64,000 nucleotides of DNA, taken from contig NZ_MPIN01000005.1 in the NCBI RefSeq assembly GCF_001887355.1, positions 366,681 to 430,680 on the forward strand, read 5' to 3'. Source of the DNA: Cystobacter ferrugineus. GTDB taxonomy: Bacteria; Myxococcota; Myxococcia; Myxococcales; Myxococcaceae. A model generated the notes under the pieces. The model saw nothing but the letters and a program-made list of their open reading frames with translations, was not told the DNA's origin and made no database searches. The translations under genes were made by a program, and so were the position numbers. Shown piece by piece: positions 13,701-16,817 of this stretch (position 1 is its first letter; each line of letters opens with the position of its first letter).

Positions 13701-13728
13701 CGCACGGAGGCCCTCACGGCTCCGTGCG
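13701..13728. terminator. Hairpin between convergent plsB and lipoprotein genes
   Basis: CGCACGGAG (13701-13709) and CTCCGTGCG (13720-13728) form a perfect 9-base stem with a 10-base loop. The stop codon of the leftward lipoprotein gene (13714-13716) sits in the loop. Position between converging genes suggests a bidirectional terminator. There is no T run on either side, so the termination mechanism is unclear. Confidence 0.45.
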
Positions 13729-14148
13729 GAAGGGCACCCGCACCTCTTGCGCGAGCGGATTGCCCTGGGTGTCCGTGAGCAGCGTGCGCAGCACCAGCGT
13801 GTAGGCGGTGCCCGGAGTGAAGGCGCCGGAGCTGGCGCGCACCGTGACCGTGGAGGGCACGTCCCCGCGCTCGATGTCGTCCTGCCCCTCCGGCTCCGCG
13901 GGCACCAACACCTCCAGCGGCACCTCCGCCCGGCCCTCGAAGACGGCGATGCCCGGGCGCAGCGTGCGCGCGTCCATCCGCTCGGAGAAGAGGATCTGCA
14001 GCGTGCCACCCGCCTCCACCGTGCCCCCGGCGCTCGGCTCGGTGGACACCACGTCTGGCGGATCCGCGTCGGCCGCGGCGAGGAAGGGATCACCAGGCTC
14101 CAGGCACGCCGCGCAGCCCAGGAGGCCCAGCCACAAGAACCGGCGCAT
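13714..14148 (-). CDS. Ig-like (SbsA/Big-type) lipoprotein of the cytochrome operon
   Basis: Small exported protein of 144 residues. ATG 14148 gives MRRFLWLGLLGCAACLEPGD, a lipoprotein signal with Cys at positions 12 and 15, either of which could be lipidated. The rest (DVVSTEPSAGGTVEAGGTLQ, LFSERMDARTLRPGIAVFEG, YTLVLRTLLTDTQGNPLAQE) is one bacterial Ig-like domain of the SbsA type. Its ATG overlaps the cytochrome stop by one base (TGATG), so it is made together with the cytochrome and is probably an accessory surface or anchoring subunit. Confidence 0.75.
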   Translation of the reverse strand: MRRFLWLGLLGCAACLEPGDPFLAAADADPPDVVSTEPSAGGTVEAGGTLQILFSERMDARTLRPGIAVFEGRAEVPLEVLVPAEPEGQDDIERGDVPSTVTVRASSGAFTPGTAYTLVLRTLLTDTQGNPLAQEVRVPFRTEP

Positions 14149-15320
14149 CAGCGGCACCCCTTCTGGGAGAGGCTCGACTCGGTGTGACACTTGAGGCAGG
14201 CCCGATCATTGCTCGCCGCCACGCGCTTGCACGCCGCGGCGAACCCATCCGGGTGCGGGTTCACCTGCCGCCCCGTCATCCCCGAGTGGCACGTGAGGCA
14301 CGACTCCTCGCGGTGACAGGACACGCACGACTGCATGTCCCGCGACGCCGCGACGCCGTGGTGCTGCGGCCCGGGCACTTCCACCCAGGAGTTGTAGTCC
14401 GGGTGCACCTTCACGTTGCGCGCGCGCAGCGAGCGATCCGCGTTCTGCCCCACTCCCGAGCGCTCGTGGCACGCGACGCAGAAGGACTGCGCGCGGTGGC
14501 AGCTCGAGCAGCGCGTGGAGTCCTGGCGCGCCTGGATGGGGTGCAGGGTGATGAAGTCGTTGGGGTGCACCGACAGCGGCTTCTGGAGCGCGTCGTGGCA
14601 CGTCTGGCAATAGGACTCGGTGTGGCACGACAGGCACGTGCCCCGGTCCATCGACGCGCGGTTGCCGTGGTTGAACTCGTAGCGGGGGCCGTGGTCCAGG
14701 CCGAGGGGATCTCCCTGCATGGGGCGCAGGATGCCGGAGGGGAAGGTGAGCTGCAGTCGCCCCGAGGGCTGCTTCAGGTGGCAGGCGCCGCACTCCTTCG
14801 GGGCCTGGTGGCCGTCATGGCACTTGAGGCACGTGGCCATCTTCGGCAACTGCTGCCGGGTGGCGAGCTGCACGTCCGTCATGGCGCCATGGCACGTCGC
14901 GCAGTCCACCTTCTTCTGCACGTGAAGCTGGTGGTTGAAGTTCAGGTTGGCCGGGGGCGCGTCCAGCTTCGGCGGTGCCAGGTGCACCGTGGCGTCGAAG
15001 CCCGGATGGCACACGTTGCAGGCGGACGGGGGATCCGTCTTCGCGCCCTTTCTCGCCGCGTCGAGGTCGTGACACGTCTCGCACTCCTCGTGGCCCGGCA
15101 GGTTGCGATCCTTCACCGAGGCACTCGTCCGGGCGCTGTCATGGCACGTGGTGCACTCGGCCCCCGCCTCCAGGTGCTGCTTGTGATCGAAGCGCACGGG
15201 GATGCGTTGGGCCGGGTAGATGGCGAGGCTGCGCTCGTTCGCGGTGGCGGCCCAGGCGAGGCCGGCCACCACCAGGGACAGGGCGACGAGGCCCAGGACG
15301 ATTCGGGACTGGCGCTCCAT
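14148..15320 (-). CDS. Exported 13-heme cytochrome c
   Basis: Periplasmic or outer-membrane multiheme electron carrier, 390 residues, with a signal segment in the first 24 residues (VALSLVVAGLAWAAT). I count thirteen CxxCH heme-attachment motifs: CTTCH, CETCH, CNVCH, CATCH, CLKCH, CGACH, CLSCH, CQTCH, CSSCH, CVACH, CVSCH, CLTCH, CLKCH. Extra histidines in FDHKQH, FNHQLH and EFNHGN can serve as distal ligands. There is no extra catalytic domain, so the job is electron transfer. It lies directly after the barrel gene (stop TAG immediately before ATG) and is coupled to the lipoprotein. This order resembles porin-cytochrome conduits, but I cannot assign it to a named family. Confidence 0.92.
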   Translation of the reverse strand: MERQSRIVLGLVALSLVVAGLAWAATANERSLAIYPAQRIPVRFDHKQHLEAGAECTTCHDSARTSASVKDRNLPGHEECETCHDLDAARKGAKTDPPSACNVCHPGFDATVHLAPPKLDAPPANLNFNHQLHVQKKVDCATCHGAMTDVQLATRQQLPKMATCLKCHDGHQAPKECGACHLKQPSGRLQLTFPSGILRPMQGDPLGLDHGPRYEFNHGNRASMDRGTCLSCHTESYCQTCHDALQKPLSVHPNDFITLHPIQARQDSTRCSSCHRAQSFCVACHERSGVGQNADRSLRARNVKVHPDYNSWVEVPGPQHHGVAASRDMQSCVSCHREESCLTCHSGMTGRQVNPHPDGFAAACKRVAASNDRACLKCHTESSLSQKGCR

Positions 15321-16817
15321 CTACAAGCTCGCCTTCAGATCGAAGAGGAAGAACACCTTGGTGTCCCAGCGGGTGTAGGGGTTCACGTTCTGCTCGAACA
15401 CCAGCGACACGCGCGCGGCCCGGGTGAGCGCCTGGCTCGCCCAGAGCTGCGCGCCCAGGAAGCCGCCCGCGAGCAGGGGATTGAAACCATCATGGATGTA
15501 CGCCGCGCTCAGCCGCCCATCCAGGGTGGTGCGGCCCTCGCGGAAGCCGTAGCCCGCGGTGAGATCCGCCCAGAGCTGCGTGCCGCCATACCCCCCGCGC
15601 ACGGACACATCCAGCGCGGAGCGGAAGCGATCCCTCCGCAGCGCCGCCCCCGCCGAGCCGCCCACGGTGAAGGAGGGCTGTCCGCCCGCGGCCTTCGCCG
15701 CCTCGGCCAGTTGCAGCGAGCTGTTGAGCACGGTGTGGTAGAGGCTGCCCACCGCCTGGACGTAGTAGCGCAGGGTGCCGCGCGGGAAGAAGTCCACGCG
15801 CACGCGCGCCTCGTCGCGGGGCGCGTAGGCGAACCAGTACCAGATGGAGTCGGCGGAGAAGACGGGCGACAGGCGCATCGCCTCGCCACTCACGGCCAGG
15901 GCCTCCGCGTCCCAGCGCACCTGGAGCCGGGCCTGCGCGGGCTTGAGCTGCAACAGGTCCACGTCCACGCCCGCCACCGCGTTCAACCCGAGGCCCCGTC
16001 CATACCGGGCCTCCACCGTCGCGCGCTCGACGTCCGTCTTGCCCGCCAGCAGCGCCCGGCGGTAGCCCACGGACGCCGATACCCCCTGGACGTTCTCCAA
16101 CAGCAGCTTCGCGCCGTACACGGGCTCGGGCGCCGTGAGCGTTGGATCCGCGCCGGGCACGCCCTGCTCCAGGCGCCGGGTGTCGCTCTCGCGGACGCCA
16201 TCGGGCTGGTACACCGAGGAGGACAGGAACCCCGCCCCCTTCACCCACAGCCCGCCATACACCTCGGCGCCCAGCCCCACCGGGCTCACGTAGCGCAGGC
16301 TCAGTCCGTCGAAGGCCAGGATGTCCGACACGTCCCCGTAGAGCTGCCGGCCGAGCCGCCCCTCGACACCGCCCACCCCGTAGCGCACGAAGGCGTAGAG
16401 CAGGTCCGCGTCCTCCGAGCGCTCGCCGTCGATCTTCGCCGCCTCCCCGCGCGGCAGACCGAAATCCGCGAAGATGCGCAGGCTGGATTCGAAGCCCAGA
16501 TCCTGCCCGGTGACGAGCTCGTACCCGGCGACCCCCAGGTACTGGACGATGCGCCGGCGCGGCAGCAGCACGGGCTCGCCCGGCGAGGCGTCGCGCCAGG
16601 AGCGGATCTGATACACCTGGGCCTCGGTGCGCGCCTCCACCTGGAACGCCGAGGCCGAGGCCACCGACGAACCGAGCAGCACCGTCAGCAACCCCGCGCG
16701 CTGGAGCCCGACCCGCTCCCGCCCGCTCGTCCGTCGCCGTGTTCGTTCTTCGAATGGGGGCGTCAAGGTCCGGGCATTATAGAAGCGCTTCGCGCCTGGA
16801 TGTCGTGTTTTACACAT
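15321..16817 (-). CDS. Putative outer-membrane beta-barrel partner of the cytochrome
   Basis: Up to 498 residues. A hydrophobic signal (GLLTVLLGSSVASASA) lies around residues 42-57 and is followed by many alternating short strands rich in Tyr, Gly and Arg (VEGRLGRQLYGDVSDILAFD, GLSLRYVSPVGLGAEVYGGL, YVQAVGSLYHTVLNSSLQLA), as in barrels. The start is uncertain. ATG 16817 gives a long n-region and there is a perfect TATAAT at 16781-16776 inside it, so initiation may be nearer 16766 (TTG). First gene of the barrel-cytochrome-lipoprotein operon; a porin sheath for the cytochrome is the obvious reading but is inference. No characterised homologue recognised. Confidence 0.7.
   Translation of the reverse strand: MCKTRHPGAKRFYNARTLTPPFEERTRRRTSGRERVGLQRAGLLTVLLGSSVASASAFQVEARTEAQVYQIRSWRDASPGEPVLLPRRRIVQYLGVAGYELVTGQDLGFESSLRIFADFGLPRGEAAKIDGERSEDADLLYAFVRYGVGGVEGRLGRQLYGDVSDILAFDGLSLRYVSPVGLGAEVYGGLWVKGAGFLSSSVYQPDGVRESDTRRLEQGVPGADPTLTAPEPVYGAKLLLENVQGVSASVGYRRALLAGKTDVERATVEARYGRGLGLNAVAGVDVDLLQLKPAQARLQVRWDAEALAVSGEAMRLSPVFSADSIWYWFAYAPRDEARVRVDFFPRGTLRYYVQAVGSLYHTVLNSSLQLAEAAKAAGGQPSFTVGGSAGAALRRDRFRSALDVSVRGGYGGTQLWADLTAGYGFREGRTTLDGRLSAAYIHDGFNPLLAGGFLGAQLWASQALTRAARVSLVFEQNVNPYTRWDTKVFFLFDLKASL

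Follow-up and report, generated by a model that had tools for sequence, protein, structure and literature searches.

A barrel, 13-heme cytochrome and lipoprotein cassette of Myxococcaceae as a probable outer-membrane electron conduit

Three tightly packed genes of Cystobacter ferrugineus raise the question of whether a mostly aerobic predatory myxobacterium could pass electrons across its outer membrane. The genes occupy positions 13714-16817 of the window, by which we mean the whole stretch of 64,000 nucleotides that was analyzed, and are arranged head to tail on the minus strand in the order barrel (ORF 16817..15321), cytochrome (15320..14148) and lipoprotein (14148..13714). An earlier, sequence-only reading of the window had these coordinates, the strand and the junctions right. 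The TAG stop codon of the barrel gene directly abuts the in-frame ATG of the cytochrome gene (15320), and the TGA of the cytochrome gene overlaps the ATG of the lipoprotein gene at 14148 (TGATG). The in-frame junction of stop codon and ATG is found in at least 10 other genomes with the family (TAG in nine, TAA in one) and is not universal, being shifted in the locus L023. Genes were called with a codon-likelihood caller, which under-calls in lower-GC loci, and genes in those loci were placed by tblastn. The dN/dS ratios were 0.07-0.35 for barrel and cytochrome and 0.38-0.50 for the lipoprotein, and the cassette is under purifying selection.

The barrel ORF extends back to an ATG at 16817, and its product is a beta-rich protein with a signal peptide. 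The ORF is present as previously described, but its start probably has to be moved. The window and each of the 27 close homologues that we checked have a TATAAT or TATACT box, followed at a distance of about 9 nt by an in-frame TTG (a GTG in a single case). The ATG at 16817 lies upstream of this box and is not conserved among the homologues. In the window the probable -10 box covers 16776..16781 (minus strand), and translation probably starts at TTG 16766. A transcript initiated from the TATAAT box would begin a few bases from the TTG, so the barrel mRNA is likely to be near-leaderless and to use a start codon other than ATG (16764-16781, minus strand). Starting from the TTG, the gene (15321..16766, minus strand) encodes 481 amino acids with a long, arginine-rich signal peptide of about 40 residues (16647..16766, minus strand), which ends in SASA before FQ, a cleavage site judged by eye.

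We asked what kind of protein the first gene encodes. The AlphaFold2 model (me81fce907d99), built from 43 aligned sequences with an input of 463 amino acids from position 16712 that covers the mature protein, is a single 22-strand barrel without plug domain (mean pLDDT 84.4, pTM 0.75). The protein is hence predicted to be neither small nor a non-barrel, in agreement with the barrel of 20 or more strands that a conduit had been expected to show. Residues in the strands alternate between aliphatic and polar, giving amphipathic strands with a clean alternation of lipid and lumen sides, and the strand number falls within the range of about 18-22 expected of a porin-like barrel in a porin-cytochrome (Pcc) system; published Pcc porins have 18-22 predicted strands (PMC4245776). 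The sequence-only reading had not recognised the family of the barrel, and our searches agree, with no family in Pfam and NCBIfam reaching a meaningful score and no match between the family profile and sequences of solved structures in the PDB. The comparison with MtrB/PioB, which the sequence-only reading had put forward, gave no match to MtrB_PioB (PF11854). Foldseek and VIA matched the barrel model with large barrels of many functions, including TonB receptors, ushers and MtrB. The model aligned with MtrB (6r2q_B) with a Z-score of 15.6 and an rmsd of 5.3 Å over 375 residues, and ushers and TonB receptors scored equally high. These matches are generic to large barrels, so the fold by itself assigns no family. 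According to simple barrel geometry, the backbone radius is about 20 Å for 22 strands versus 23.5 Å for 26 strands, and a cytochrome in the lumen would therefore sit tighter than MtrA does in MtrB. We searched for a conserved cytochrome-binding interior by comparing the entropy of lumen- and lipid-facing positions (2.04 versus 2.06) and saw none, the lumen side being no more conserved.

Could the barrel instead export polysaccharides or other solutes, like the alginate exporter, and be associated with the cytochrome only incidentally? We regard this as very improbable. The Alginate_exp porin family (PF13372) gave a sub-threshold match (E = 0.011) in one of 27 homologues and no match in the others, and was rejected as an assignment. 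Polysaccharide genes were not recognised alongside the cassette, the cytochrome is the constant partner of the barrel, and 22 strands are predicted here versus the 18 of AlgE.

The second gene (14148..15320, minus strand) encodes an exported c-type cytochrome of 390 amino acids with a signal peptide and without lipobox. Its heme-binding region (residues 56-379; 14184..15155, minus strand) contains exactly 13 CxxCH motifs, confirming both the number and the export proposed earlier. With these motifs, the signal peptide, the missing lipobox and a gene adjoining that of the barrel, the protein has the features of the periplasmic cytochrome of a Pcc system. In an alignment of 26 rows, 13 motifs are present in 25 (the window protein and 24 of 25 clade-1 homologues) and 12 in one; the cytochrome of the genome G150, which is outside the alignment, was called with 11. 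The same 26 rows have 13 conserved histidines outside the motifs, of which 11 are invariant and two are conserved at 77% and 88%. This number would allow bis-histidine ligation of every heme, leaving no open catalytic heme, and suggests that the protein could be a wire and not an enzyme. The cytochrome profile matched ActA of Alternative Complex III, cytochromes c7 and, weakly, MtrA. The similarity to ActA (6lod, 8k9e; E down to 1e-20) is in the N-terminal part, and the weak match to MtrA (6r2q_A; E = 1e-4) is likewise confined to the N-terminal part or first half. The protein scored 9.9 bits with the model of decaheme MtrA/DmsE cytochromes (TIGR03508), below the cut-off of 192.2, and hence does not belong to the MtrA family.

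The third gene (13714..14148, minus strand) encodes a lipoprotein with a conserved cysteine before the motif [LV][ED]PGD and one Ig-like Big_5 domain (E = 1.1e-11). It has no heme motif, and in this the cassette lacks the redox-cofactor lipoprotein of most Pcc systems. A Big_5 lipoprotein is encoded downstream in most Myxococcaceae loci and in the family f11, with variants in L075 and L079, and is missing in several distant cassettes, including L072, L074 and L077. In the distant relative L079 (8599-9363, minus strand) the Big_5 lipoprotein gene is upstream of the barrel gene, and its product has a C-terminal PSCyt1-like domain with the motif CNASGCH (CX4CH; E = 4e-4), a hint that the Big_5 lipoprotein may sit near the redox path.

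We then analyzed how closely barrel and cytochrome belong together. The order is represented by 145 genomes. Counting only full-length matches, 35 of these have both genes and two have the cytochrome but lack an intact barrel; the barrel never occurs alone. The two exceptions are an incomplete MAG (G088) and a genome whose barrel has an internal gap (G109). The trees of barrel and cytochrome mirror each other (r = 0.949; none of 2000 permutations as high), to which the shared ancestry of the genomes contributes. The co-occurrence across genomes that had been predicted for a conduit was thus found. Within Myxococcaceae the cassette is flanked by genes for a glycerol-3-phosphate acyltransferase and an Rce1-like protease; in distant families the order of barrel and cytochrome is kept, usually with the Big_5 lipoprotein, and the neighbours are unrelated. 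The family was searched in Myxococcota, with other phyla covered by one short-pattern scan, and the barrel profile matched in 75 of 195 Myxococcota genomes, a number that includes remnants and a second, divergent clade. Many Myxococcaceae thus have the cassette, which is old within the phylum and not a one-off. The conduit had been called unexpected in an aerobic predator, and this is partly right, as its hosts are mostly aerobic predators but the cassette is not confined to a single one of them.

Loci of the second clade combine a barrel with a 12-13-heme cytochrome. Often, large OmcA/MtrC-family proteins with 10 hemes are encoded next to them; those of L140, L142 and L144 exceeded the curated cut-off, and those of L146 and L147 fell short of it. 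These loci also often contain further multiheme cytochromes and genes resembling quinol-oxidising complexes. Conduit parts of both clades are present in five genomes (G030, G084, G163, G038 and G088; loci L136, L137, L138, L144 and L148). One clade-2 locus (L143) is from a genome (G013) that we take to be an Anaeromyxobacter; it matched the profiles of the barrel (E = 4.9e-9) and the cytochrome (2.4e-42), both proteins are of clade 2, and its cytochrome, encoded beside the barrel, has 345 amino acids and 12 hemes. Anaeromyxobacter has published two-gene porin-cytochrome clusters with a 12-heme cytochrome, and the level of the cytochrome Adeh_3392 rises in Mn(IV)-reducing conditions (Shi et al. 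2014, PMC4245776). The Pcc cytochromes of Anaeromyxobacter and Kuenenia together span 338-344 amino acids (PMC4245776). Clade 2 appears to include the published Anaeromyxobacter cluster, the size and heme number of the L143 cytochrome fitting Adeh_3392.

The kinship to OmcA/MtrC-associated pairs also bears on a different explanation, in which the cytochrome would carry or store electrons in the periplasm, the barrel would be an ordinary porin transcribed along with it, and no electrons would cross the outer membrane. As a proxy for the complex, we modelled barrel and cytochrome as one chain by reading through the in-frame TAG; with a mean pLDDT of 82 and a pTM of 0.54, the model gives no confident relative position of the two proteins and does not support docking, which would agree with a periplasmic carrier. 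Such a carrier would also agree with the genomes G090 and G128, in which barrel and cytochrome are on separate contigs with different neighbours. We nevertheless consider it improbable, because co-occurrence is near-perfect and the trees match, clade-2 pairs sit with cytochromes of a surface-acting family, and a plugless barrel of 22 strands would be a very large open pore.

How does the cassette relate to known conduits? It resembles Shewanella MtrCAB and PioAB/MtoAB in its layout of a barrel and a multiheme cytochrome, the part of the "MtrAB-like" label that stood. The rest of the label did not, as the barrel has no MtrB_PioB match and 22 versus 26-28 strands, and the cytochrome 13 versus 10 hemes; nor was an MtrC found in the genome. 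The Anaeromyxobacter cluster (Pcc Group IV, Adeh_3392) is from the same phylum and likewise consists of a barrel followed by a large multiheme cytochrome, without a surface cytochrome, whereas the window cassette belongs to a separate clade, has 13 hemes, a longer cytochrome and a third gene with a Big_5 domain, and occurs mostly in aerobic predators. Most Pcc clusters encode one or more outer-membrane lipoproteins with redox cofactors, and those of Anaeromyxobacter and Kuenenia encode none (PMC4245776). Compared by description and not by sequence, ExtHIJKL, ExtABCD and OmbB-OmaB-OmcB of Geobacter sulfurreducens share three features with the cassette: a barrel with some 18-22 strands, a periplasmic cytochrome with multiple hemes, and an outer-membrane lipoprotein. 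The lipoprotein of the window is Ig-like and not a rhodanese or cytochrome, and the window cytochrome has 13 hemes. Like the lipoprotein of the window, ExtH is not a cytochrome (PMC6148476). ActA resembles the window cytochrome in the N-terminal part; the partner of the 13-heme protein, however, is a barrel, and the genome has two separate genes of the ActA type. Most likely, the cassette is a variant of the porin-cytochrome kind and not an MtrAB member, with an Ig-like lipoprotein that lacks heme where other clusters encode a surface cytochrome. In the open-access literature that we searched, we found no publication on myxobacterial conduits beyond Anaeromyxobacter.

Taken together, we consider it probable (about 0.7) that the three genes encode a Pcc-type trans-outer-membrane electron conduit, with the cytochrome in or through the barrel lumen and the lipoprotein as an accessory. 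The conduit first proposed for this locus is supported by the 22-strand barrel, the co-occurrence, the matching trees, the OmcA/MtrC-adjacent relatives and the Anaeromyxobacter cluster (PMC4245776); its MtrAB kinship is not. Several points argue against a conduit. The cluster lacks a surface cytochrome, and a search of the genome for OmcA/MtrC proteins found none. The lipoprotein is heme-free and missing from several distant cassettes, the sequence of the barrel matches neither MtrB_PioB nor solved structures, its structural matches are generic, its lumen side shows no extra conservation, the read-through model does not support docking, and the cassette is dispensable. In the proposed conduit the barrel would insert into the outer membrane, with the 13-heme cytochrome held inside or threaded through the vacant lumen, and the chain of bis-histidine hemes would connect the cell surface with electron carriers of the periplasm. 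The Big_5 lipoprotein would occupy the place that a surface cytochrome has in other conduits and, as an outer-membrane accessory, may cap, dock or orient the complex. Electrons would probably come from the quinol pool via Alternative Complex III or a NapC/NirT-type protein. The genome of the window encodes two cytochromes of the ActA type, gave a single weak match to NapC/NirT, and has no match to OmcA/MtrC (TIGR03507) or MtrB_PioB (PF11854). The NapC/NirT-like multiheme protein (L149, 1501-1956, minus strand) adjoins a gene that by eye resembles a molybdopterin oxidoreductase, and is a possible site of electron entry from quinol to periplasm.

The electrons would probably exit to an external acceptor under oxygen shortage. 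Alternatively, the conduit could run the other way or serve small soluble oxidants, for electron uptake or for the reduction of oxyanions at the surface, as reported for Geobacter ExtI (selenite, tellurite). This proposal overlaps with the preferred one and differs only in direction or substrate; we judge it unlikely, as Myxococcaceae are organotrophs and no rhodanese or reductase gene adjoins the cassette. It draws on the absence of a surface cytochrome, which the window cassette and the Anaeromyxobacter cluster share with PioAB, MtoAB and ExtHIJKL, the latter three functioning in Fe(II) oxidation or oxyanion reduction (PMC4245776; PMC6148476).

The dispensability of the cassette is evident within a genus (g19) that we take to be Myxococcus, where 12 of the 27 genomes have a full barrel, eight have fragments and seven have none; many genomes have thus lost it. 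In six of them (L090-L093, L097 and L098), remnants persist at the ancestral site between the same neighbours. The cassette decayed or was deleted in place in each, and the remnants differ, suggesting more than one loss. None of the 16 genomes of the genus g6 had a barrel match.

Outer-membrane electron conduits have been studied mainly in anaerobic metal reducers. We tentatively propose that Myxococcota have an ancient family of conduits whose 22-strand barrel is spanned by the 13-heme cytochrome alone, with a heme-free Ig-like lipoprotein in place of the surface cytochrome, and that aerobic predatory myxobacteria might use it to pass electrons to or from prey, minerals or swarm neighbours. 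A conduit this small, whose only wire has 13 hemes and whose lipoprotein is non-redox, would be a useful structural target. Archangium, several Myxococcus species and other Myxococcaceae have kept the cassette, and close relatives have lost it in place; this presence and absence between sister species makes its function directly testable. If the proposal is true, predatory soil bacteria would be able to exchange electrons with their surroundings.
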